64,000 nucleotides of DNA. Origin: Synechococcus sp. WH 7805. GTDB lineage: Bacteria; Cyanobacteriota; Cyanobacteriia; PCC-6307; Cyanobiaceae. Every line of letters starts with the position of its first letter. Positions within the stretch are counted from its first letter, which is position 1. The position numbers and the translations under genes were made by a program. The notes under the pieces are model-generated. The model was not told where the DNA came from. It worked only from the letters and a program-made list of their open reading frames with translations, and ran no database searches. The stretch covers positions 827,854-891,853 of the forward strand of contig NZ_CH724168.1 in the NCBI RefSeq assembly GCF_000153285.1. Direction: 5' to 3'. Shown one piece after another: positions 18,070 to 60,122 of the stretch.

Positions 18070-18096
18070 CCCTCGCCGCAAGGCGGGGGTTTTTTT
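18070..18096 (+). terminator. intrinsic terminator of psbDC
   Basis: An eight-base stem (CCCTCGCC / GGCGGGGG with one G-T pair) with a GCAA loop is followed by seven T residues, 33 nt after the psbC stop. Confidence 0.9.
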
Positions 18097-18162
18097 ATTG
18101 CACCGATCGGGCCAGGATCCCGGGGGCTGAGCAAGGGTGCGTCAGCGCAATGGAAAAAACTG

Positions 18163-21807: not shown

Positions 21808-23006
21808 CAGACCCTCCACACTCACCCCGCCACACCCTTCTGCGGGGCAGCTTGAGGGCCATGCTGGCAGGAGCGGCCGGCGGAGCCCTGGCGGCTGTTG
21901 TGGTGAAAGTTGTCCTGTCCCTACAGGAATGGGTCTGGGGTTCAGCAGTGCTTGAGGGTCTGCCCTCGGAGCGTTCCCTGTGCTGGTGCCTGCTCTGGTG
22001 CAGTAGAATCGGCCTGGCCATCAGCCTGCTGCAACGGCACCGGCCCTCCAGCGCCCTGCCTGAACTGGCGCAGACCCTGACGGAGCTGCGCCGGCCCGAT
22101 GGCCTTCAGACCAGCGAGGGGTCACGCCAGCTGCTCGGAGGAGGTCTGGCGTTAATCGGCGGCGGCACCCTCGGTCCGGAAGCGCTGATGACCCGCTTGA
22201 TTGCTGTGGCCAGCCATCGCGTCTGGAGGGGCACCGACCGTGACCTGGTGGCTGCGGCGATGGCAGGAACGTTGGGCTTGTTCCACTCCCCCCTCGTGGG
22301 AGGGGCAGCGCTGGCTGGCAAGCGCTGGCAGCTGCTCTGGCGCTGGTTGCCAGGCACCCTCGGCGGAGTGGCTGGCTTCGTGGTGTTCAGAGGATTGAGC
22401 GACCTGGGCGGCGGCCTGCGCGGCGTGCCCTACGACTGGCCAGTGGATCAAGAGCAGTGGTTCGGGGCACTGGTCGCTGCAGTTCTGGCAGGTCTCGTGG
22501 GCTGCTGCATCGGTGTGCTGCTGGGCCATTGGCGCCATTGGCTGCGGTCGCTGTCCCTGCAGGAACGCTTCTGGTTCACCCCGGTGCTAACCGGTCTGAT
22601 CCTTGGCTTCAGCCTCTGGGCCCTGCCGCTGTCTGTGTTCTCTGGAGAGAACCAGCTCAAGCCCCTGGTGCTCGGCGCCTGGTCGCTGAGCACTGGCGTG
22701 CTGCTGCTGTCAGCGCTCTTCAAGCTGCTGTTGGTGGGCCTCTGCCTGGAAACTGGCTGGAAAGGGGGGCAATTCTTCCCTGTGATCCTGGCCAGCAGTG
22801 CCCTGGGCATGGGGCTGCATGAATGCCTGCCTTGTCTCGGAGGCCTGCAGAGCTGGAGTTCCGGCGTTGTGGGCGGCAGCTTGTCCGTTCTGCTCAACTC
22901 ACCAGTCCTGGGATTGATGCTTGGCCTCACACTCCTTCAAGGCCATGGAGCCGGAGCACTTGTGATCGGCCTTCTCGTAGGCCAGCTGATCCAACGCAAA
23001 CGCTGA
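21804..23006 (+). CDS. ClC-family chloride channel/transporter, divergent
   Basis: A 400-residue integral membrane protein with about ten hydrophobic segments. It keeps the GGxxxP-type element GWKGGQFFPVI near residue 315 and LGPEALMTRLIAVA near residue 125, where ClC proteins have GREGPxxQ. The gating Glu of GREGP appears replaced (GTLGPEA). GTG start, overlapping the ferredoxin stop. It likely moves chloride or another anion. Assignment rests on these motifs and topology. Confidence 0.75.
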   Translation: MTDPPHSPRHTLLRGSLRAMLAGAAGGALAAVVVKVVLSLQEWVWGSAVLEGLPSERSLCWCLLWCSRIGLAISLLQRHRPSSALPELAQTLTELRRPDGLQTSEGSRQLLGGGLALIGGGTLGPEALMTRLIAVASHRVWRGTDRDLVAAAMAGTLGLFHSPLVGGAALAGKRWQLLWRWLPGTLGGVAGFVVFRGLSDLGGGLRGVPYDWPVDQEQWFGALVAAVLAGLVGCCIGVLLGHWRHWLRSLSLQERFWFTPVLTGLILGFSLWALPLSVFSGENQLKPLVLGAWSLSTGVLLLSALFKLLLVGLCLETGWKGGQFFPVILASSALGMGLHECLPCLGGLQSWSSGVVGGSLSVLLNSPVLGLMLGLTLLQGHGAGALVIGLLVGQLIQRKR

Positions 23007-23879
23007 ATGGGTGTTCTTGCTGGACTCTTCGCAGCATTGGCCTGGACCCTGGCCAGCAGCCTCTGGCGCGGACTGGTGACCTCCCTGAGCGCACTGCAGC
23101 TCAATGGCCTCAAAAACGCCATCGCCTGCATGGCGCTGCTGCCCGTGCTGATCAGCCTCCCCTGGACACACGAAGTCCCCGGATTGTTGCTGCTGCTGCT
23201 CAGTGGCGGCATCGGGATCTCGCTGGGGGACAGCTTTTACCTGGCTGCATTGCGGCGTTTGGGAACACGCCGCACCCTCACTCTCGAATCACTCTCTCCT
23301 CTGGCAGCGGCCAGCGGTGGTCTACTGGTGATGGGGGAACGGCTCTCAAGCCAGGCTTGGCTCGGCACTGTCATGGTCACTGTGTCAGTGGTGTTGGTGG
23401 CCCGGCAACAACCGCCGGATGACACCAGCCGAAACGACCGGAGCACTCGCGAACAGATCATCGGGCTGACGTTGGCCCTGGCGGCGGTGATCTGCGGTGT
23501 GACAGGAGCGGCGGTCTCCCGCAACGTTCTGATGACCACGGATCTGAGCCCGATCCAAAGCGCCTCCGCCAGGCTGCTCGGCGGCTTGCTGCTGCTGCTT
23601 CCCTGGTTGCGTTTCCATACGGCGTTTCCGCAGCCCCGACCAAAGATCGCCCGTTGGCCTCGGGTGCTGCTGGCCACCGGGCTGGGCACCGTTCTGGGGA
23701 TCCTTCTGCAGCAGGTGGTACTGCAACAGCTGCCTCTTGGTGTTGGCATCACAGTGCTCAGCACCGCACCGGTGATGGCGCTGTTGGTGGCCCGTGCAGA
23801 AGGCGATCATCCGCTCGCCGCTGGATGGCTGGCCTCGGCGCTGGCGGTGGTAGGGGTGGCTCTCGCCGTTAGGGGTTAA
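23007..23879 (+). CDS. EamA/DMT-family transporter
   Basis: A 290-residue protein with ten predicted transmembrane helices arranged as two EamA repeats (about 1-135 and 150-290). The drug/metabolite transporter signature is visible in LESLSPLAAASGGLLVMGERLS and its C-terminal counterpart. The substrate is unknown. The ATG immediately follows the TGA of the ClC-like gene, so cobQ, the ferredoxin, ClC-like gene and this gene look like one operon, closed by the terminator overlapping its stop. Confidence 0.9.
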   Translation: MGVLAGLFAALAWTLASSLWRGLVTSLSALQLNGLKNAIACMALLPVLISLPWTHEVPGLLLLLLSGGIGISLGDSFYLAALRRLGTRRTLTLESLSPLAAASGGLLVMGERLSSQAWLGTVMVTVSVVLVARQQPPDDTSRNDRSTREQIIGLTLALAAVICGVTGAAVSRNVLMTTDLSPIQSASARLLGGLLLLLPWLRFHTAFPQPRPKIARWPRVLLATGLGTVLGILLQQVVLQQLPLGVGITVLSTAPVMALLVARAEGDHPLAAGWLASALAVVGVALAVRG

Positions 23880-23897
23880 GCCCCTACGGTTTTTGCA
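23856..23897 (+). repeat. direct repeat, copy 1 (3' end of EamA gene)
   Basis: A 42-nt segment covering the last seven codons, stop and terminator of the EamA gene aligns without gaps to 25390-25431, with 36 of 42 identical. The final 17 bases, CCCCTACGGTTTTTGCA, are exact. The two copies bracket the DUF3764 and oxygenase genes. Confidence 0.85.
23870..23894 (+). terminator. intrinsic terminator of the cobQ-EamA operon
   Basis: A six-base stem TAGGGG/CCCCTA with loop TTAAG, which contains the TAA stop, is followed by CGGTTTTT. Confidence 0.8.
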
Positions 23898-23976
23898 CCA
23901 GACGATTGAGTAGTGAAGCCGATTTAAGGATTGCTAATTCTGGTGATAGTTTCCGCCAGCACCTTGATCCTGGTCG

Positions 23977-24243
23977 ATGGAAACCCACGTCCTTACTTTC
24001 ACAATCACCAAGTCATTCAGCGATTGGGCCAAGGTCTACGACGAGTCACTGCCATTCCAGAAAACGCTTGGAATCACCTCCCTGTTCCGCGGTGTCAGCA
24101 AGGATGATCCCTCCAAGGTGTGTGCGGTGATGCAGGCAATGCCGGGTGTGCTGGAGCAGTTCATCGCCGACAACACAGACATGATTGCCTCCTCAGGGCA
24201 TGTCCTAGAGAGCACGTTGACTCAAGTTTTCATCGATTCCTGA
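23977..24243 (+). CDS. DUF3764 family protein
   Basis: An 88-residue protein: METHVLTFTITKSFSDWAKV, then ITSLFRGVSKDDPSKVCAVMQA and a C-terminal helix. It matches the DUF3764 proteins of marine cyanobacteria, which look like small ferredoxin-fold (dimeric alpha-beta barrel-like) proteins. Function is unknown. It lies between the two copies of the 42-bp repeat, so it may have arrived with the oxygenase gene. Confidence 0.85.
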   Translation: METHVLTFTITKSFSDWAKVYDESLPFQKTLGITSLFRGVSKDDPSKVCAVMQAMPGVLEQFIADNTDMIASSGHVLESTLTQVFIDS

Positions 24244-24320
24244 TGGCCTGACGTCCAGCACGGGCCTGGACCACCCAGAACACGGGGGGCGCGGTCAGCA
24301 ACGATGGGTCGAGTTGACAG

Positions 24321-24515
24321 CTGTGTTGGATCCTTCACATCGAGAGCAGCGGCTGGCAGTCCATCCCTGAGACCGCGGCGGAACGGAACCTGCAACTCAA
24401 TGTTCAGCATCTGATGGCGGATGATCAGCTGATCGAGATTCCTCTGTCCGTCCTGATCCGGTCTCGCTGCGCGCATTACTTGCTGCAACAGCTCTGTTTG
24501 TTCGATGAATCTTGA
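24321..24515 (+). pseudogene. possible gene remnant lacking a normal start
   Basis: A frame of 64 codons opens right after a TGA at 24315-24317. It reads WILHIESSGWQSIPETAAER, then NLQLNVQHLMADDQLIEIPL and ends LLQQLCLFDES. It looks protein-like but has no ATG, GTG or TTG near its 5' end. It may be a decayed small gene or one starting at CTG. This is the only thing I see in the 303-nt gap between the DUF3764 and oxygenase genes. Confidence 0.3.
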
Positions 24516-24546
24516 ATCAATGCAACCAATGAACTCTGACGGGTCT

Positions 24547-25335
24547 CTAAAACCCTTTGGCCGTGGGGCGCTGACTCGAGAGAGAAATGTTGCCGAGGGG
24601 TTGCTGCTTTGAGGGTTGCTGCATCGCGGCTGGCGCAACACCAGGTATTGCCACGGCATTGAAGGCAAGAGACCAGCGTTCCCCGTCTCCACGGAAGGGC
24701 ATCACCGAATGGGGTTGCCAGGCCGGGAACACATAGAACTCTCCGGGGATGGGAAGCACGTAATGCGCCATTCCGGTACGGAACGATTGCAGATGCCAGT
24801 CTTCCGGGCCGTGGAAGCAGAGTTGGCCATCAAAACTGTTGGCATTGATCTGGGGTGGCACCTTCAGAAAGATCACCCCGGAAAAGCTGCCGCCGTGGGT
24901 ATGGGTGGGGTTGTAGTCACCTGCGGTCTGGCAATTGAGCCAGAGATCAATCATCTGCAAGCGGTAGCGACCGGGAACCCAGGGGCCCCGACCTTGGGGA
25001 GGCTGACGGTCCATCACGTGGCGGATCCAACGCTCGCAAGCAGGCAGAAGGTGGTTGTTGCTGAGGTCCTGCACTCCGGGTTGCTCAGGCCGCAGTTCGC
25101 GTTGCTGACGCAGTTGACCCGCCAGCTTCGCGGATGCATCGGGGCTCGAATCTGGATTGGCCAGAATGCTCTCACTCAGTGCAATCAGTTGCTGGAGCAG
25201 AGGATCCGGCAGGGTGCCCCGCAGGATGGAGCGGGGAAACAGATCGAGAACGTCCACCAATGGCTGGTCTTCTCCTGGCATTTTGGCAGCCCAAAAGAGG
25301 GTGGGCTGCTCATCCCGATCGTGATGCTGCGTCAC
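24547..25335 (-). CDS. putative 2-oxoglutarate/Fe(II) oxygenase
   Basis: A 262-residue protein matching the 2OG-FeII_Oxy_5 group often seen near phage-like or stress genes in marine cyanobacteria. The jelly-roll core carries NPTHTHGGSFSGVIFLKVP (about 142-160) with candidate iron-binding His, and a distal WQPHSVMPFRG then RWSLAFN with His and the Arg that would hold 2-oxoglutarate. The C-terminal 30 residues are Gln/Ser-rich and probably disordered. It lies inside the block bracketed by the 42-bp repeat. Confidence 0.75.
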   Translation of the reverse strand: MTQHHDRDEQPTLFWAAKMPGEDQPLVDVLDLFPRSILRGTLPDPLLQQLIALSESILANPDSSPDASAKLAGQLRQQRELRPEQPGVQDLSNNHLLPACERWIRHVMDRQPPQGRGPWVPGRYRLQMIDLWLNCQTAGDYNPTHTHGGSFSGVIFLKVPPQINANSFDGQLCFHGPEDWHLQSFRTGMAHYVLPIPGEFYVFPAWQPHSVMPFRGDGERWSLAFNAVAIPGVAPAAMQQPSKQQPLGNISLSSQRPTAKGF

Positions 25336-25413
25336 GCACTCCTTGTGCAGTTACTGCTTGTGATCACCGTTGCCGCAGCGGGAACAGTCGTAGCTCTCGT
25401 CGTCAGAGGTTGA
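25324..25413 (+). CDS. possible tiny membrane protein or duplicated EamA tail
   Basis: A 29-codon frame, MLRHALLVQLLLVITVAAAG then TVVALVVRG, is a single hydrophobic helix. Its last residues (VALVVRG-stop) match the EamA end (VALAVRG-stop), and the DNA is the second copy of the 42-bp repeat. It could be a short membrane protein, or just a remnant of an EamA-like gene end. Confidence 0.35.
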   Translation: MLRHALLVQLLLVITVAAAGTVVALVVRG

Positions 25414-25431
25414 ACCCCTACGGTTTTTGCA
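25390..25431 (+). repeat. direct repeat, copy 2 (EamA-like 3' end)
   Basis: This is the second copy of the 42-nt segment at 23856-23897 (36/42 identical, no gaps). The terminator stem is weakened here (AGGTTGAACCCCT), but the CGGTTTTT run is retained. It is followed within 20 nt by the next gene. Confidence 0.85.
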
Positions 25432-25449
25432 TTGAAAAAAGATGCACCC

Positions 25450-26193
25450 ATGACCGCAACTGCCACTTACCTCGGCGCCAATGGTTGGTTTCTCGAGGTT
25501 GCGGATCTGCGCGTGCTGTTGGACCCCTGGCTGTTTGGCCCCCTGGTGTTTCCCCCTGGCCCCTGGCTGCTGAAAGGAGAGATGCCCTCGCTGCAGCCTG
25601 TGCCTGAGTCAATTGATCTGCTGCTGCTCACCCAGGGCCTTCAGGATCACGCCCACCCTGAAACCCTCATGATGTTGAGCAAAGATCTGCCCGTGGTGGG
25701 ATCTGCCGCAGCGGCCAAGGTGGCGAAGCGGCTGGGCTTCACCTCCGTTCAGACGCTTAACCCTGGTGAAAGCACAGAGCGTGGCCCTTTGCAGATTCGC
25801 GCCACCGCTGGTGCTGCCGTTCCGGCCGTGGAGAACGGGTACCTGCTCGACTGGCCTGGTGGATCTCTCTACTTAGAACCCCATGGGGTGCTGGATCCCT
25901 CCCTAGAGGAGCGCCCCGTGCAGACGGTGATCACACCTGTGGTGGATTTAGGCCTGCCCCTGGTGGGCAACTTCATCACCGGCGCCAGCGTGATGCCGGA
26001 TCTGATCAGCCGCTTTCAGCCCCAACAGGTGCTGGCAAGCACCACAGGCGGAGACGTGCGCTTCAGCGGCCTGATCAGCAAAGTGCTGGAAGCTGGCGGT
26101 CAGTCGGAAGCCAGCCCTGAGGCCACCGAGAGATGCATGCTGATCACCCCCACCGTGGGTGAAGCCATTCCCCTCGCAGCGAGCCCTAGCTAA
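25450..26193 (+). CDS. metallo-beta-lactamase-fold hydrolase, degenerate metal site
   Basis: A 247-residue protein (start MTATATYLGANGWFLE) with the metallo-beta-lactamase superfamily scaffold: an LLDPWLFGP strand, then LLLLTQGLQDHAHPETL where active members have THxHxDH. Here the motif reads TQGLQDHAHP, so part of the canonical set is lost. Similar proteins occur in plants and cyanobacteria. The frame extends six codons upstream, but this ATG fits the fold better. It may be structural or bind a single metal. Function is unknown. Confidence 0.8.
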   Translation: MTATATYLGANGWFLEVADLRVLLDPWLFGPLVFPPGPWLLKGEMPSLQPVPESIDLLLLTQGLQDHAHPETLMMLSKDLPVVGSAAAAKVAKRLGFTSVQTLNPGESTERGPLQIRATAGAAVPAVENGYLLDWPGGSLYLEPHGVLDPSLEERPVQTVITPVVDLGLPLVGNFITGASVMPDLISRFQPQQVLASTTGGDVRFSGLISKVLEAGGQSEASPEATERCMLITPTVGEAIPLAASPS

Positions 26194-26220
26194 AGCGATA
26201 AGAATCGGAACAGAACGTCA

Positions 26221-26859
26221 ATGGCGCTGGATCAAGCGCTCAGCCGACTGGAGATACAGACCAAGGGTTCAGGCTTCAATCGCATCGATGGTTCCCTGAA
26301 CAATTGGATCCGCAGCACCCAGATGCAGTGCGGCGTTGTACATCTCACCTGCCTGCACACCAGTTGCAGCCTCACCATCAATGAAAACGCCGACCCGCGG
26401 GTGCTGCTGGATCTCGCGGCCTGGATGGACGCGATCGTTCCGCAGGATGGCGCCGGTCCACTGGCAGCCAACGGACAGCGGCGGCGTTACCTGCATGACG
26501 ACGAAGGCAACGACGACATGCCGGCCCACATCCGCACCGCGCTCACCCATCAAACCCTGAGCCTGAGTGTCGAGAACGGCCAACTGCTTCTCGGGACCTG
26601 GCAAGCCGTGTATCTCTGGGAACACCGCTCGGCGCCTCACCGGCGCACGATCGCTTGTCACCTGATCGGTGAAACACGAACAAACAAGAAAGCCGTTGCC
26701 GACACCAGCACCAACCTGCAACGCCGCAATGGCGAAAAACTGAATGAACTGGTGCAGGCAAAACACATCCCGGAAGCCTGGGCCGAGGATGGCGGCGTGG
26801 ACACCGAGGTGGATCTACTCATCGACCGCCTGCATGAAATCGCAGACGACCCACGATGA
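26221..26859 (+). CDS. YjbQ-family protein with C-terminal extension
   Basis: The first ~140 residues match YjbQ/UPF0047 (LHTSCSLTINENADPRVLLDL, DDMPAHIRTAL, LLLGTWQAVYLWEHR), a family with reported secondary thiamine-phosphate synthase activity in some members. Typical YjbQ proteins are 130-150 residues. This one continues to 212 with a charged helical tail (about 145-212) that I do not recognise. Its end overlaps the MFS transporter ATG (ATGA), suggesting coupling. Confidence 0.88.
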   Translation: MALDQALSRLEIQTKGSGFNRIDGSLNNWIRSTQMQCGVVHLTCLHTSCSLTINENADPRVLLDLAAWMDAIVPQDGAGPLAANGQRRRYLHDDEGNDDMPAHIRTALTHQTLSLSVENGQLLLGTWQAVYLWEHRSAPHRRTIACHLIGETRTNKKAVADTSTNLQRRNGEKLNELVQAKHIPEAWAEDGGVDTEVDLLIDRLHEIADDPR

Positions 26860-53460: not shown

Positions 53461-54210
53461 ATGATGCGATCGGAGTGGCGGCGCAAGCGATGGAGGGAAC
53501 TGATTTATGAACTGCTGCTGGGCCTCTGTCTGATAGTGCTGGCCAGCTTCGCCTTTCCAAGGCTCACCTGGCTGGGAAGCCTCGGCTATGCCCTGATCGC
53601 CCTGCTGCTCACCCAGTTGGTGATGATCCGCAAGCCAGTGCTCACCCTGCAGGATCGTTTGTACCAAGCACTGGGACTCGTGGCGCTGTCGGCTTTGCTG
53701 CTGTGGCTGCTCACCCCGGTGCGCTGGGAGACCAGCGGCGTGCCGCTGGTGTTGAGCTGGGGTGTGCTGGTGGGGTGGAGCGTGATCCGCCTGATGGAAC
53801 GCTTGGCCACCGAACGGCATGTGACCTCCGCCATGCTGATGGGTGCTGCCGCGGGCTATCTGTTGCTGGGACTCACAGCCGGGCTGGTCATGAGCGCAGT
53901 GGAAACCATTCAGCCAGGCAGCTTCGAACCCCTCGACATCCCGATCACGGATGCAGCAGGCCAGAACTACACGGTGATCGGGTCAGCGGCGGTGTTCGCT
54001 CAGATCAATTACTTCGCCTTCATCTGCCTCACCACCGTTGGCTTTGGAGACATCAACCCCGAGCTTCCCCTCGCCAGGATCCTGGCCGTCAGCACAGGCA
54101 TTGCCGGACCTCTCTACCTGGCCGTGGTGATGGGGGTGCTGATCGGGCGTTACGCCGGTGACCGTGAGATCGAAGACCGCCTGGAGCAACACGATCCCAA
54201 TCGACGTTGA
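53461..54210 (+). CDS. potassium-channel-like protein
   Basis: A 249-residue protein with several hydrophobic segments and a pore loop containing the selectivity filter TTVGFGD near residue 195, the signature of K+ channels. N-terminal helices extend the usual two-helix core, and the end is short and charged. It probably carries potassium. It is divergent from ftsH. A decayed partial copy follows directly downstream. Confidence 0.88.
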   Translation: MMRSEWRRKRWRELIYELLLGLCLIVLASFAFPRLTWLGSLGYALIALLLTQLVMIRKPVLTLQDRLYQALGLVALSALLLWLLTPVRWETSGVPLVLSWGVLVGWSVIRLMERLATERHVTSAMLMGAAAGYLLLGLTAGLVMSAVETIQPGSFEPLDIPITDAAGQNYTVIGSAAVFAQINYFAFICLTTVGFGDINPELPLARILAVSTGIAGPLYLAVVMGVLIGRYAGDREIEDRLEQHDPNRR

Positions 54211-54297: not shown

Positions 54298-54570
54298 ATG
54301 GTCCCGGCAAGCGGGATTACAGGGTATTGCTGGCTCGGCGCTCCCTGCTACTCGCTGATCGCTCTCTGGTTCACTCGGGTTCTGGGGCTGTTCGCGGTGG
54401 TGTCGCAGTGGATGTGGCTGATCACACCGGTGAAGCGGGTGGGCTGGAGTGTGATCCGGCTGGTGCGGGCCCTGGCCAGCGAAACTAAAGTGAACGAACG
54501 CATCCTGATGGGGGCCGTGGTGATGGGCGTGCTGATCGGCCGCTTCAGCACGGATCTGAAAGGGAACTGA
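54298..54570 (+). pseudogene. decayed tandem copy of the potassium channel
   Basis: A 90-codon frame corresponds to the channel in shortened form: YSLIALWFTRVLG matches YALIALLLTQLVM, VGWSVIRLVRALASETKV matches VGWSVIRLMERLATERHV, and ILMGAVVMGVLIGR joins MLMGA directly to VVMGVLIGR. The pore loop and filter (about 80 residues) are missing, so it cannot form a channel. Its end overlaps ribD. Confidence 0.8.
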
Positions 54571-55663
54571 GAGTCACCTGCAGCAACAGATCGTCGGTGA
54601 GGCGCTGCTGACGCAGCCCCTGCAGAACCACCACCTCCTCCATGGCCTGGAAGCCCAGATGCCCAAGAGGTGTGCGCGCCGGCTCACCGCCAAGCAGCTT
54701 GGGGGCTATCACCGCAGCCAGCTCCTGCACGCACGCCTGCTGCAGGGCAGCGGCAGCCAGCTCCGGGCCACACTCCCAGAGCACCCGGTTGCAGCCCCGC
54801 TGGGCCAGGACCGCCATCAAAGACTCAGGCCCACAGGCCGGTAGCACCTCCCGTTGCAACCCCAGCGCCTCCAACCGGTCCCGCGCTTCCGCCGGCGCGT
54901 CCTGGCCATGCACCACGAGGGTGGGCGCAACGGATTGGTCCCAGATCTGAGCCTGATCAGGCAGATCCAGCCTGCGGCTCAGCACCACCCGCAGCGGTTC
55001 AGGGCTGCGCAAGCCCCGGCTGGTAAGCAGCGGATCATCAGCGCGCACGGTGCCGCCTCCCACGATCACGGCATCACACTGGGCCCGCAGACGATGCACC
55101 CAGGTGCGTGCGGTGGATCCGCTGATCCACTGACTGGCGCCATTGGGCAAGGCCGTTCGGCCATCCAGGCTCATCGCCCACTTGAGAAGGCCCCAGGGCC
55201 GACCGGTGCGCACGCGATGCACGAAGGCGTAATTCTGTTGGGCAGCTTCTGCCTCCAGCACACCGGAGATCACCTCCACGCCGGCATCGCGCAGCCGTTG
55301 CAAACCACCACCGGCAACACGGGGATCGGGATCGGTGAGTGCCACCACCACCCGAGCGATCCCTGCCTTGATCAAGGCGTCCGTGCAGGGCGGGGTGCGG
55401 CCGTGATGGCAGCAAGGCTCCAGGGTGACGATGATCGTGCCGCCACGGGCGGCATCACCGGCCTGGGCTAAGGCCCCCACTTCGGCATGGGGTTCACCAG
55501 CCCTGGCATGAAATCCCTCCCCCACCAGCGTGCCGGAGGGATCGAGCACCACCGCACCCACTAGGGGATTAGGACTCGTGTAGCCATCGGCCAAGGCCGC
55601 CAGTTCCAAGGCCCGACGCATCCAGGGAATCCAGCGCTGATCAGCGTCAGCGACCGCCCTCAT
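54545..55663 (-). CDS. ribD: riboflavin biosynthesis deaminase/reductase
   Basis: Bifunctional enzyme of riboflavin synthesis: an N-terminal pyrimidine deaminase with zinc motif HAEVGAL (about 59-65) and EPCCHHGRTPPC (about 87-98), and a C-terminal reductase with SLDGRTALPNG and GGGTVRADDPLLTSR (about 200-214). It has 372 residues, normal length. Its start overlaps the DUF3122 gene stop, and its end overlaps the channel pseudogene by 26 nt. Confidence 0.96.
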   Translation of the reverse strand: MRAVADADQRWIPWMRRALELAALADGYTSPNPLVGAVVLDPSGTLVGEGFHARAGEPHAEVGALAQAGDAARGGTIIVTLEPCCHHGRTPPCTDALIKAGIARVVVALTDPDPRVAGGGLQRLRDAGVEVISGVLEAEAAQQNYAFVHRVRTGRPWGLLKWAMSLDGRTALPNGASQWISGSTARTWVHRLRAQCDAVIVGGGTVRADDPLLTSRGLRSPEPLRVVLSRRLDLPDQAQIWDQSVAPTLVVHGQDAPAEARDRLEALGLQREVLPACGPESLMAVLAQRGCNRVLWECGPELAAAALQQACVQELAAVIAPKLLGGEPARTPLGHLGFQAMEEVVVLQGLRQQRLTDDLLLQVTLSSLSDPC

Positions 55664-56160
55664 GAACTGAGAGGCTCCGTTTGCACCTCACGCCACTCCC
55701 CCACCACATAAGGGGGAACAGGCATTTCGTTGAACACACCGGGAAGGAACAAACGCAGAGGGCGGTTGTTGATGAGGTCGTTGAGCAGTGGATCGAGGGC
55801 GAACTCAGCGGCCGCCTCCCGGCCATCACTGACAAGAACGGGATTCTCAAGAGTGATGTCGTCGAGTTGCCACTCCTTCACGCCGGCCTGCACGAGCAGG
55901 GGGGAGGGGTGTTCGAGGCGCAGCTTGCCGGGGTAACCCACGATGCGCAACACCACGGGATTACCAGGCTGACCGGTGCGATAGGCCACTGCCTGCCAAC
56001 TCTGGTAATCCAGATCGCGCAGGCTTTCGAGGCTGCGCAGCATCGGTGCCCCATTTTCATCCTGGTGTTCATGCACCTGCGCGCTCACGGCCATGGGGGT
56101 GAGCAGCAAAAGCGTTACGGCAACCAGCAGTGTGCAAAGCAGACGACGCAACGCGAGCAT
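55660..56160 (-). CDS. DUF3122 family exported protein
   Basis: A 166-residue cyanobacterial protein with a signal peptide (MLALRRLLCTLLVAVTLLLL, ending near VSA). The mature domain contains LRDLDYQSWQAVAYRTGQPG and LVLRIVGYPGKLRLEHPSPL-type strands and matches DUF3122. It is predicted to be in the periplasm or thylakoid lumen. Function is unknown. It overlaps ribD by four bases. Confidence 0.88.
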   Translation of the reverse strand: MLALRRLLCTLLVAVTLLLLTPMAVSAQVHEHQDENGAPMLRSLESLRDLDYQSWQAVAYRTGQPGNPVVLRIVGYPGKLRLEHPSPLLVQAGVKEWQLDDITLENPVLVSDGREAAAEFALDPLLNDLINNRPLRLFLPGVFNEMPVPPYVVGEWREVQTEPLSS

Positions 56161-56184
56161 GAATCAAGCGCGAACAGTGCTCCC

Positions 56185-56664
56185 ATGATCGAGCATCAGC
56201 CACTGCAAGCGGGGTCCCTACTGGACCCACGTCTTGAAGCCTGCGGCACCGCCTTGCGCGAGGTGGACGACATGACCTTGCCCGGGGAGCATGACGCGGA
56301 GCTGAGCTTCGGACCAGGGACACTGCGGTATTACGTGATGCGCATCCCCCGCAGACCCCTGCGGATCGCGGCGATGACCCGCCACCTGAACGCCACCCAA
56401 TGCCTGAGTTCCGCCGAAGCACGTTCCTTCTGGCTGCTGCTGGCACCGCCAGACACAAAGGGGCCAGTGCTGGATGCTTCCGCAGCCTGGTTGCTGCGCA
56501 TCGAAGCCGGCGAAGGCATCAAATTGCATCTGGGCACCTGGCATGCTGGACCATTGTTTGATGCCGACTCCGCCTCCTTTTTCAATCTGGAGCTGAGCGA
56601 CACCAACCAGAACGATCACGAAACCTTGAAACTCAATCGCAGCATCGCCGTGGAGCTGAATTGA
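56185..56664 (+). CDS. ureidoglycolate lyase-like cupin protein
   Basis: A 159-residue protein with the AllA-type cupin signature: a C-terminal LGTWHAGPLFDADSASFFNL then ELSDTNQNDHET matches the ureidoglycolate lyase/hydrolase family. That enzyme breaks ureidoglycolate to glyoxylate and urea in purine degradation. Other purine-breakdown genes are not in this window, so the substrate is uncertain. I chose ATG 56185; longer frames read antisense to the DUF3122 gene. Its 3' end has a second copy after the MAPEG gene. Confidence 0.82.
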   Translation: MIEHQPLQAGSLLDPRLEACGTALREVDDMTLPGEHDAELSFGPGTLRYYVMRIPRRPLRIAAMTRHLNATQCLSSAEARSFWLLLAPPDTKGPVLDASAAWLLRIEAGEGIKLHLGTWHAGPLFDADSASFFNLELSDTNQNDHETLKLNRSIAVELN

Positions 56665-56680
56665 ACGTCAGAACTGCTAG
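56644..56680 (+). repeat. direct repeat, copy 1 (3' end of ureidoglycolate-lyase-like gene)
   Basis: The last codons, stop and 21 following bases align with 57434-57470, 33 of 37 identical. The encoded ends are IAVELN-stop and IAMELN-stop. Confidence 0.8.
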
Positions 56681-56834
56681 GTGATACTGCCACTGGCGTG
56701 TGCGCACACACCCCGTCAAATCCGCTGTGACAACAAAAAACCGGGAGGCTATGCCAACAACCCAAAGAGCAGGCCTACAAAACAGACAGCAATCATTCAC
56801 TTCAATCATCGAATAGAGACTGCAACTTTCATCG

Positions 56835-57281
56835 CTACACAAGGGCTTCTAGTCCCACGCCATAAAGGATCCCACTGCAGAGCAGGCCTAAGAACCAAGC
56901 CACGGAGCGAGCGATCGGAACGTTCAAGAGATAAGCGCTGATATAGGCAACACGAAGCACTGGATGCGCCAATGCAACCGCGACAGCGATGCCTGGAAGG
57001 GCGTGACCATTCAACACCGCAACAACAGCAAGTAATGCCGCAGGAGCATGCATAGCGAAGGCTTCAAAACTGTTTTGCTGTGCCCAACTTGCACGCTTAC
57101 CCCAGGCCGGAAAGCGATCAAACATCGAACGCAACGCAGCCAAGTCCTTGACTTCAAGCCTTGCACTAAATCGAGCGGCATAGAGCAGGATGATGCTGAT
57201 CAGCAACGCAGCGAATGACAGGATCAGCGACCACACATAAGGCGTGGCACTCGAAGCCATCGATGGCGACAATTCCGACAC
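56835..57281 (-). CDS. MAPEG-family membrane protein
   Basis: A 148-residue protein with four transmembrane helices and the MAPEG pattern WAQQNSFEAFAMHAPAALLA near the middle, followed by AHPVLRVAYISAYLLNV. MAPEG members include glutathione transferases and eicosanoid-metabolism enzymes; cyanobacterial members are of unknown role. The start may be the eighth codon. It sits inside the block bracketed by the ureidoglycolate-lyase gene end repeats and in lower-GC DNA than the neighbours. Confidence 0.85.
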   Translation of the reverse strand: MSELSPSMASSATPYVWSLILSFAALLISIILLYAARFSARLEVKDLAALRSMFDRFPAWGKRASWAQQNSFEAFAMHAPAALLAVVAVLNGHALPGIAVAVALAHPVLRVAYISAYLLNVPIARSVAWFLGLLCSGILYGVGLEALV

Positions 57282-57433
57282 TGAAAATCACAAAAAGGCG
57301 CCTTTACAAGCTAACGACGTCAGACGCGTATGCACAAAAAGTAAAGCATTTCACTTTTTAATCGAATTGATTCATGCAATCAAGCAAGCCAAGTTCATGC
57401 GATTTGAACAAGCAATAACCGCAACAACACAGG

Positions 57434-57470
57434 ATCGCCATGGAGCTGAACTGAGCGTCAGAACTGCCAG
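57434..57470 (+). repeat. direct repeat, copy 2 (3' end of ureidoglycolate-lyase-like gene)
   Basis: Second copy of 56644-56680 (33/37). It lies in noncoding DNA 55 nt before the end of the GH116 gene. Confidence 0.8.
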
Positions 57471-57525
57471 ATCATGGCCAGTTTCGTCTGTAGGAAGTTG
57501 GTGGTGGGGCTGCAATAGCGCAGGT

Positions 57526-60030
57526 TCAGCTGATGCGCTCCGCCCCAGGAATCCGTTGCCAATCGGTGTGCGTCGCCCACAGCCCCCAGATCGCCATCGC
57601 CCGCAGGTAATGACAAGCCCTGAAGGTGTTCACCGCCGTGATCGCCTCCGGTGTGCGGAACTGCAGACCACCGCTGTACACCTGATGCACTACCGCTGAA
57701 CAGATTGCTTCCGCAGTCTGCCCTTCACCCATCAACTGGTAGTAGCTGGCGATGCCGAAGTTGATGCCTGTCCACACCTCCAGCGGATGAGTGCCATTGG
57801 GATCCAAGGGTGTGCCATCACGGCGCAGTCCATTGGCCACCCCAAGGCTGCCGCCCTGGAACTTCTCAAAGCAACTCTCCTTCACGGCCTTGAGCGTGCT
57901 GCGGCTGTTGGCGTCACTCACCACCGGCTCCAGGCCCAGCAGGCGCGCATAAAAATCACCGCAGAGCTGATCGGCCATCACCACTGGCGTGCCGCTTTCG
58001 GCATCAATGTCGTAGTACTCGCCGTTCCAGAGCAGAGCATCGAAATTGGCCCGGGATTGCTCCAGCCAGTTGCTGAAGGTGTGCTGTTCACTGCCGGTAT
58101 CCAGCCCCAGCTCCTGCTGCAGCCTTTGGGCCATAGCCAAAGCAGCTTCAAGCGCAGCGATCCACAACGCGCCGCAATAGGCACTCACCCCCTTCAGCGG
58201 CCAGTCGTCGAAGGTCTGATCAGGAGCACCCCCGTTATCCGGTAAGCCGTCGTTGTTGACGTCAAAACGCTTCAGATAGTGCAAGGCCTGCACGGCCGCT
58301 GGCCAGCAATCCGCCAGAAACGTGAGGTCTTCGCCGGTGGGTGCGAGCTTGAAGGTGCGCCACACTTGCAGCACAAAATCGCTGGCGAGGTCTTTCCAGA
58401 GATTGCAATCCTGATACGCCGTGTAATTGGTGGCATCAAAAGGGACCTCATTGGGAGCCCCCAGGTCGTGCGGCGTGGCCCCCTCCACCTTGCGATCCGC
58501 TTCCACCCGGCCGCGTCCTTGGGTGAAATACCAACCGATCGGCCGCTGGGTGGCATCCGCCGCCGGGATCGCTCTGGCGAAGCTGCGCAGCACCGCCTTG
58601 TCGAGTTCCGGCCAGAGCTGCAGCAAACCCAGGGATCCGTAGAGCCGCACATCCAGGCTTTCGTACCAGGCATAGTCGAGACACTCGAGCACGCCAAAGC
58701 GACCGTGGGGATCCTTACCCGACGCCGCGGTCCAGAGGCTTCCGCCACTGGCCAGGTCGTAGAGCTCATTGAATAAGGCCATGCGCAGAGCTTCCGGCAG
58801 CTCCTTGCGCGCCAGCACCGGTGCCTGCCAGGCATCGATCTGATCACGCCAATGGCGCCAGTCCCGCAGGGCCTCCGTTGCCATCGCCGCGGCATTGCGA
58901 CCATCGGCTCCAAAGAAATCGGTGTAGCGGCGCAAATCACGAACACCGGACGCGAAGGCGGTGACCGGCAGATCCCAGCTGATCGCAATCGGGATTTCGC
59001 GGGATTCCCCGGGAGCCAGGGTGAACGTCAGGGCAATCGCTGCACTGGCGTGCTCGCCGGCACGACTGGCCCGATCGTTGTTGCTGTTGGGAATGCGGCC
59101 CTCCGCAGCAAACGGTTGCCAGAGCTCCTGGCCATCACCCGTGGGATCCCAGCGGCTGCAGCGCAGCACCTCAACACCATCAAGCGTGTCAGGAACCGCC
59201 AGACACCACTGCCCTTGCCCCTCGCCGATGGGCTCGCTGCGCTGGCCTTCCAGCACGATGCCGCGAATGCCTTCCTGATCCAACCAACGGTTGCGTTGCC
59301 CCTCGCCGTGGCCGATCGCTGGGGCGTAGTTGTGTTCCGGGCTGCCGTCATCCCGGAAATGCACCTCTGCCGAGGGGTCGGTGTTGAAGAACCAACCCAC
59401 CGTGTTGCGCCAACTGAGGAGCAACGACAGATCCAGCGGTTGATCGGTGGGATTGCGCAAGGTCCAGCGGAACACGGCCACTGGATAACTGGTGCGTTGA
59501 TAGTCGCCAGGGAGGATCGGGCTGAAGGCCTCGCATTGCACCTCGGCGTCGAATACACCCTCGTAATGGGTCCAGCTCAGGGGATAGCGGGCGGCATAGG
59601 TTCCGGTGCTCTGCTCACCCGTGCTGGCGGGATACCAATTCCAGGCAGCCAGAGGCTCACCGCTGTTGGAACGTGAGGCGTCAGCCTCGGGCTTCAAGGC
59701 CAAAGCGTGGGCCCGTTTGCTGCTGCCGTTGTTTTCAAACAGGGAGAACTGACAGTCGGGGATCGTTCCATACCAATGCTCTCCACCATCGAGATGCCAG
59801 AGGTTGAAGTCACCGCGGGAGCTGCGGCCGATGCAACCAGCACCAAATCCCCCAAGGGGCATGCCATGCCATGGGCCGTCATCGAGATTGCTGGCATAGC
59901 GGACCGTATAGGGCTGATCCCAGCCCAGGCCGAAGGGCCGGCTCCAACTGGCCTCGGGTGGCGTCCAGGCCTGCGGCCGGGGACTGCGGCGCAGAAGCGA
60001 ACGCAGGGCAGACAGACCGAGGGGAGCCAT
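57526..60030 (-). CDS. GH116 family glucosidase (GBA2-like)
   Basis: A large protein (834 residues from the ATG chosen) matching non-lysosomal glucosylceramidase/GH116 beta-glucosidases. An N-terminal beta-sandwich begins YASNLDDGPWHGMPLGGFGA with GDFNLWHLDGGEH. The C-terminal alpha/alpha barrel has the nucleophile-region LECLDYAWYESLDVRLYGS and the acid/base-region GAPDQTFDDWPLKGVSAYCG, with EVWTGINFGIASYY further on. Its role in cyanobacteria is not established; glycolipid or glucoside cleavage is a reasonable inference. A longer frame begins 63 nt upstream, but MAPLGLSALRSLL is the likelier start. Confidence 0.9.
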   Translation of the reverse strand: MAPLGLSALRSLLRRSPRPQAWTPPEASWSRPFGLGWDQPYTVRYASNLDDGPWHGMPLGGFGAGCIGRSSRGDFNLWHLDGGEHWYGTIPDCQFSLFENNGSSKRAHALALKPEADASRSNSGEPLAAWNWYPASTGEQSTGTYAARYPLSWTHYEGVFDAEVQCEAFSPILPGDYQRTSYPVAVFRWTLRNPTDQPLDLSLLLSWRNTVGWFFNTDPSAEVHFRDDGSPEHNYAPAIGHGEGQRNRWLDQEGIRGIVLEGQRSEPIGEGQGQWCLAVPDTLDGVEVLRCSRWDPTGDGQELWQPFAAEGRIPNSNNDRASRAGEHASAAIALTFTLAPGESREIPIAISWDLPVTAFASGVRDLRRYTDFFGADGRNAAAMATEALRDWRHWRDQIDAWQAPVLARKELPEALRMALFNELYDLASGGSLWTAASGKDPHGRFGVLECLDYAWYESLDVRLYGSLGLLQLWPELDKAVLRSFARAIPAADATQRPIGWYFTQGRGRVEADRKVEGATPHDLGAPNEVPFDATNYTAYQDCNLWKDLASDFVLQVWRTFKLAPTGEDLTFLADCWPAAVQALHYLKRFDVNNDGLPDNGGAPDQTFDDWPLKGVSAYCGALWIAALEAALAMAQRLQQELGLDTGSEQHTFSNWLEQSRANFDALLWNGEYYDIDAESGTPVVMADQLCGDFYARLLGLEPVVSDANSRSTLKAVKESCFEKFQGGSLGVANGLRRDGTPLDPNGTHPLEVWTGINFGIASYYQLMGEGQTAEAICSAVVHQVYSGGLQFRTPEAITAVNTFRACHYLRAMAIWGLWATHTDWQRIPGAERIS

Positions 60031-60122
60031 GGGACGGCGGAAAGTCGCCCCAGATTGCCAGACCTTGCCGGACAAACCAGTGGATGGCCTCAAGCAGATC
60101 AGCAGGCCAAGCCCTCCCTCCC

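Follow-up and report, generated by a model that had tools for sequence, protein, structure and literature searches.

A MAPEG gene between diverged gene-end repeats in Synechococcus sp. WH 7805: most likely a recombination scar of gene turnover at one spot

The locus and its direct repeat

The window is a 64,000-nt stretch of DNA from Synechococcus sp. WH 7805, positions 827854-891853 of contig C2 of the genome denoted G000, which comprises 2.6 Mb in 3 contigs. At the locus of interest a gene that we take to be ribD-like and a DUF3122 gene, both on the minus strand, are followed by a plus-strand ureidoglycolate-lyase-like gene (lyase in what follows), a MAPEG gene and a GH116 family gene, the last two again on the minus strand (Table 1). 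The lyase name, from a preliminary description of this DNA, stands in weakened form: the Pfam family PF04115 is matched at 24.0 bits with a cut-off of 23, and the score is far under both NCBIfam cut-offs. The same description termed the MAPEG gene low in G+C, which is true but mild, its 54.4% comparing with 57.2% for the window (lyase 60.8%, GH116 62.7%, the insert 56665-57457 50.6%). Its relatives in named genome contigs number two, at 59 and 61% identity, and both are Synechococcus records.

Table 1. Features of the MAPEG site and of companion site A, in window coordinates
Feature	Position	Strand	Remarks
Site A copy 1, EamA gene 3' end	23856..23897	+	42/42 to single-copy site in G010
Site A insert	23907..25389	.	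DUF3764 23977-24243 (+), 2OG-Fe(II) oxygenase 24547-25335 (-)
Site A copy 2, diverged EamA 3' end	25390..25431	+	36/42
Ureidoglycolate-lyase-like gene, 159 aa	56185..56664	+	Tail ...NRSIAVELN-stop; Pfam PF04115 E 3.4e-5, barely over cut-off
Repeat copy 1	56640..56685	+	Lyase 3' end (56640-56664) and antisense autotransporter 3' end
Autotransporter 3'-end fossil, 34 nt, after lyase stop at copy 1	56665..56698	-	82% to G023 copy (L058 1885-1852)
MAPEG gene, 148 aa	56835..57281	-	Pfam PF01124 E 2.7e-16; convergent with lyase
Repeat copy 2	57430..57475	+	Lyase 3' end fossil and antisense autotransporter 3' end
Internal autotransporter fossil, 71 nt, directly after copy 2	57472..57542	-	59/71 (83%) to L058 1571-1501
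GH116 family gene	57526..60093	-	Similarity to insert-free relatives restarts 57536-57538, 91% to G002/G022/G010

A single MAPEG gene stands between two copies of a direct repeat with a spacing of 790. The 37-bp pair from which the analysis started (56644-56680 and 57434-57470) is identical at 33 of 37 positions, the 4 mismatches having been counted on the strings, and the full ungapped repeat is 46 nt long with 39 identities. Chance similarity as its source is ruled out: in 200 dinucleotide shuffles of 55200-58700 (3.5 kb), with the best local direct repeat scored in each, the maximum was 33.7 bits and none reached the 52.7 bits found here. A tandem lyase paralogue is ruled out by there being a single lyase match in the genome at E<=0.001, and a shared terminator by the location of terminator-like sites, of which 56500-57700 has 3 (2.0 being expected by shuffling), none of them at either copy. 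A phage source was also rejected, there being no relative of the lyase or MAPEG gene in viral contigs in a search that reaches close relatives only. At the DNA level a search with the lyase end matched, at E<=1e-4, two of 201 family genomes (in a sample with only part of the genus), namely its own genome and G012.

Fossils of an autotransporter gene

The preliminary description took the repeat for the last codons and stop of the lyase gene, which fits its first 25 nt; the remainder matches, in antisense, the 3' end of an autotransporter-type gene. A genus search with the DNA around copy 2 led to a place in G023 some 110 kb away from the lyase of that genome, where a stretch of 599 aa bears an autotransporter beta-domain (PF03797, E 4.8e-31). 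At copy 2, 57458-57476 matches the reversed autotransporter 3' end of G023 (95% over 19 nt), and the longer internal piece adjoins this 3'-end piece at TCATG, which is common to both. As both copies match the autotransporter 3' end after the lyase tail, each joins a lyase end to an autotransporter end, and the MAPEG gene is flanked by two diverged fossils of one lyase/autotransporter junction.

Matches to the autotransporter protein are present in 16 of 31 genus genomes, with none in this genome at E<=0.001 in a search for which pieces of fossil size are below reach. By coordinates, lyase and autotransporter are tail-to-tail neighbours in G008, G016 and G025, where the end of the autotransporter match is 205, 26 and 30 bp, respectively, from the lyase match. 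The lyase-like gene facing the autotransporter in G016 and G025 (L022, L023) has internal stop codons, and so may be decaying there.

The same slot in relatives

In G002, G022, G010 and G020 nothing separates the lyase stop from the adjoining GH116 end. The order lyase-MAPEG-GH116 recurs in G023, with 82-83% amino acid identity for MAPEG and with copy 2 absent, while its sister, G012, has 0.5 kb of other sequence in which no autotransporter or MAPEG traces were found; in G008, G016 and G025 the slot holds the autotransporter. Since different genes are present between lyase and GH116 among relatives, the slot turns over, and the MAPEG site is most likely a recombination scar from genes being swapped in and out of one spot.

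The lyase body is 78-95% DNA-identical, per 60 nt, to that of G002, G022 and G010; its last 25 nt are 44-56% identical to these versus 88% to G023. In alignments of the neighbourhood, similarity ends at 56640 (G022, G002) or 56625 (G010) and restarts at the position entered for GH116 in Table 1. What is present at the site is two junction fossils, no detectable autotransporter gene and a break in similarity at the lyase end. Flank trees group the window with the four insert-free genomes, and leave the order inside that group unsettled. DNA identity to G023 is 78.8% in the MAPEG region and 80.0 and 81.6% in the flanks; upstream of MAPEG, the match to G023 fades near 57398, which leaves the right junction without a fixed position. 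A clean empty site with a single repeat copy was found at the MAPEG locus in no relative compared. With G023 having MAPEG in the absence of copy 2, the repeat is evidently not needed for MAPEG insertion and may not date from it. The idea of MAPEG as a travelling cassette was tried and rejected: G007, G008, G013, G017 and G028 have a 61-64% relative in another setting, and no direct repeat above 28 bits is present in 3.4 kb around these relatives.

Origin of the two copies

The reading that we prefer, and to which we attach roughly even chances, is that the lyase/GH116 slot is a turnover site into which MAPEG was brought by homology-anchored recombination from a related lineage, leaving the resident tail as copy 2. 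An ancestor would have had the lyase/autotransporter pair in the slot, with the autotransporter subsequently decaying by deletions and TCATG marking the break between its fossil pieces. The incoming DNA, from a related lineage, would have comprised a lyase tail, an autotransporter stub and MAPEG; its entry may have involved a homology anchor in lyase, with the resident lyase tail as the place of illegitimate joining on the other side, or else a circle via one crossover, and the resident tail would have remained downstream as copy 2. No site-specific enzyme would be needed. Lyase would remain intact, its 3' end being replaced by that of the incoming piece, and selection for an undamaged gene end would presumably explain the occurrence of scars at stop codons. 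The MAPEG-site sequence fits one-sided joining and a circle alike; given that the lyase tails of the insert-free relatives are different ones, neither copy is clearly native.

The extent to which the copies have diverged is pertinent. Over the 25 sites of the lyase part, 3 separate the two copies, and G023 differs from copy 1 at 3 and from copy 2 at 4; over the 21 autotransporter sites, 4 separate the copies, and each differs from the G023 gene at 3. The lyase tail of G012 has 9 differences in 25 from both copies, and the tails of the four insert-free genomes have 11-15 in 25. The copies being about as far from each other as from G023, the comparison would favour two lineages meeting over a recent duplication, with just 46 aligned sites behind that preference and the distance of the G012 tail weighing against it. 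High copy identity is expected of a recent tandem duplication, and 39 of 46 falls short of it; a tandem duplication could have occurred here as an old event.

A more local origin would be duplication of the lyase/autotransporter junction within this lineage, e.g. by unequal exchange during autotransporter loss, with MAPEG in place beforehand or coming in afterwards, and the copies drifting apart. Both copies come from the same two genes at one locus, the autotransporter pieces point to loss by deletion here, and a nearby ion-channel-like gene has likewise decayed by deletions. However, the copies are as far apart as they are from the sequence of another lineage, and the companion sites A and C, dealt with below, likewise have repeats on both sides of extra genes and single-copy counterparts in other genomes; such a local duplication is possible though somewhat unlikely.

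With divergence of the MAPEG region from G023 near the flank values, MAPEG could also be vertical and have been lost in four relatives. The order lyase-MAPEG-GH116 would then be ancestral in the clade of G023 and the window, and copy 2 with the autotransporter pieces would be a later, separate import. The identical gene order in G023 is in accord with this, as is the flank-like divergence itself, but the autotransporter stub at 56665-56698 is between lyase and MAPEG, by which MAPEG seems later than the autotransporter, and the sister of G023, G012, has its other 0.5-kb sequence where MAPEG was not found. Ancestral presence of MAPEG is therefore rated unlikely.

For homology-anchored arrival of MAPEG, the preferred reading, the G023 arrangement is also a difficulty, as copy 2 may have arisen later than MAPEG here or have disappeared from G023, and donor and recipient states were not seen among the relatives. 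In its favor are two more insertions with diverged repeats of 50-156 bp and single-copy sites in relatives.

Companion sites and frequency of the arrangement

The first of these, site A, is at 23.9-25.4 kb in the window, where the preliminary description had correctly seen a like arrangement. Its 42-nt repeat (Table 1) scores 50.0 bits, a value that 0 of 200 shuffles reached (maximum 32.8), and contains, as read from the sequence, a hairpin and then T. Window segments 23000-23906 and 25390-26300 align to stretches of G010 that overlap by 51 bp (50 bp in G022), the site being single-copy and insert-free in both genomes. Comparison extended to 21 relatives' loci, drawn from 28 other genomes with a match: in 19 of the 21, EamA ends within about 200 bp of a metallo-beta-lactamase-fold gene with no insert of such size, and in the other two, G002 and G020, there is no EamA in the 1.5 kb compared. 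Site A, judged by these alignments, is a 1.48-kb insertion into an otherwise intact EamA/metallo-beta-lactamase-fold junction, and cleaner than the MAPEG site. Relatives of its oxygenase (E<=0.001, some being fragments) are in 18 of 30 other genus genomes and absent from G002, G010, G020 and G022; the EamA-end flank was matched at none of the oxygenase loci compared.

Site C is outside the window, at 978.7-980.0 kb of G000:C2 (within L189 1715-3535, about 978.7-980.5 kb). There a HupE/UreJ-like gene (PF04955, E 4.1e-14) is between 156-bp repeats that are 90% identical and contain the last part of a 60-aa ORF along with the beginning of the ORF that follows. G022 has a single-copy site C, to which the two halves align with an overlap of 154 bp, the alignment stopping soon on both sides. 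We read the repeats at the MAPEG site, site A and site C as scars of homology-anchored recombination.

Integrative elements create attachment-site duplications at gene 3' ends, tRNA ends included, with tycheposons as an example, and as with these a gene 3' end is duplicated here on the far side of an insert. On such a model a mobile element or recombinase targeting gene 3' ends would have inserted MAPEG, the repeats being attachment sites. Direct repeats are at a stop codon at three sites, and a gene with an integrase-arm domain (PF13356) adjoins site C, which makes a mobile-element origin possible at that site. In contrast to such elements, no recombinase turned up when genes of the MAPEG and site A inserts were scanned (MAPEG being the one gene so covered in its insert, where the other ORFs of at least 60 aa overlap MAPEG, the lyase end or GH116). 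The copies, of lengths 46, 51 and 156, have diverged to about 85-90% identity, copy 2 is absent in G023, and no shared motif was found among the three sites, whose longest common strings are 6-8 nt, so that a site-specific 'mode' is not supported. Insertion of MAPEG by such an element is very improbable.

Frequency was approached by scanning for direct repeats of 20-400 nt, at least 33 bits and 0.3-4.5 kb apart, in 40 stretches of 20 kb from G000 (800 kb, 30.5% of the main contig) plus the window, the gene calls being from a simple script that may have overlooked some gene ends. Beyond the window 37 pairs were found: 24 within genes, 2 touching a gene stop, and 11 at a start or between genes, 5 of the latter having one side within a gene or at a gene start. 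The two that touch a stop are site C and a terminator-like intergenic pair in L160. That stretch (G000:C2 2378001-2398000) is repeat-rich and gave 15 of the 37 pairs. A repeat in L182 was rejected as an insertion scar since it looks like a terminator. The window itself yielded 25 pairs, 22 within genes (those listed fall in a giant repetitive gene) and 3 at a stop, i.e. site A, the MAPEG site and a decayed ion-channel-like paralogue at 54120/54513. The last was discounted as an insertion, its repeat joining the decayed paralogue to its neighbour instead. For G010 the scan covered 20 stretches and returned 500 pairs; a single repetitive stretch accounts for 493, and of the 7 others 0 are at a stop. 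Convincing cases number 3 in 864 kb of G000 and 0 in 380 kb of G010, too few for a rate difference to be called, and since two of the three are those that drew attention to the window initially, their density within it is selected. The suggestion of a general mode of gene insertion behind stop codons is thus partly retained as regards a recurrent outcome (site A with single-copy counterparts in G010 and G022, site C with one in G022) and dropped as regards a special mechanism. The genome scan with empty-site comparison proposed alongside it did produce one further convincing case, site C, in 800 kb, with stops involved in only 2 of 37 pairs, one being terminator-like.

Relation to known systems and significance

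Several known systems are relevant. For arrays of type VI secretion system (T6SS) effector/immunity genes in V. cholerae, homology-facilitated illegitimate recombination (HFIR) has been proposed, which corresponds to the one-sided joining considered above, and its authors describe it as rare in experiments (PMC5361080). The likeness is in a new gene beside a conserved anchor and displaced old sequence left downstream, with no integrase known in the account given of those arrays (PMC5361080). In the present case, unlike those arrays, what is left over consists of two gene ends, 46 nt in all, together with autotransporter pieces, in a picocyanobacterium-like genome; the case is known from sequence, and the non-homologous junction is not placed to the base. 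In Haloquadratum walsbyi there are repeat-bounded indels and also deletion-coupled insertions, and for the latter the sections describing them report no targeting motif (PMC3119063). Different sequences in the same syntenic slot, and one repeat copy in the other strain, are features in common; the H. walsbyi repeats, as described in that study, are usually <20 bp and read as deletions, whereas those here are 46-156 nt and diverged (PMC3119063). Small variable segments in bacterial species are at many loci and largely ascribed to illegitimate recombination, with 10-18% flanked by direct repeats; as presented there they are of 20-500 bp and within species, in contrast to whole genes between species here (PMC2884548).

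As a trace of gene turnover the MAPEG site is genuine and legible, though traces of its kind have been described before; on the evidence at hand it constitutes a well-resolved local case with two companions, not a new mechanism. From such gene-end fossils the order of gene arrivals and losses at one spot can be read, and they provide signatures in sequence, open to testing, of the way in which non-mobile genes are gained. A broader proposition is that single-gene gains in this lineage are often via integrase-free, homology-primed capture that needs no more than some 50-150 bp of homology at the 3' ends of genes (e.g. from circles by one crossover), leaving diverged gene-end duplicates. We consider this decidedly unlikely; if true, however, diverged gene-end duplicates would be a dated record of gene acquisition across picocyanobacteria, and were such scars common they would offer a simple genome-wide meter of homology-anchored gene capture.

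Other variable places in the window

An ion-channel-like gene remnant (90-aa frame; its identity read from the sequence) is at 54298-54570. It is longer in G022, G010 and G002, lacks several pieces here, the largest being 268-273 bp, and is tied to its neighbour at 54120-54149 by a 30-nt repeat. At 18095-18160, about 0.8 kb from an IsrR RNA match, there is a slot of 57-64 bp; the additional sequence in it amounts to 22 kb for G022, 4.4 kb for G002 and 2.3 kb for G010. A slot beside tRNA-Ala, 29.9-45.1 kb, is occupied by a giant repetitive gene of 3649 aa, and its size differs in all three relatives compared.
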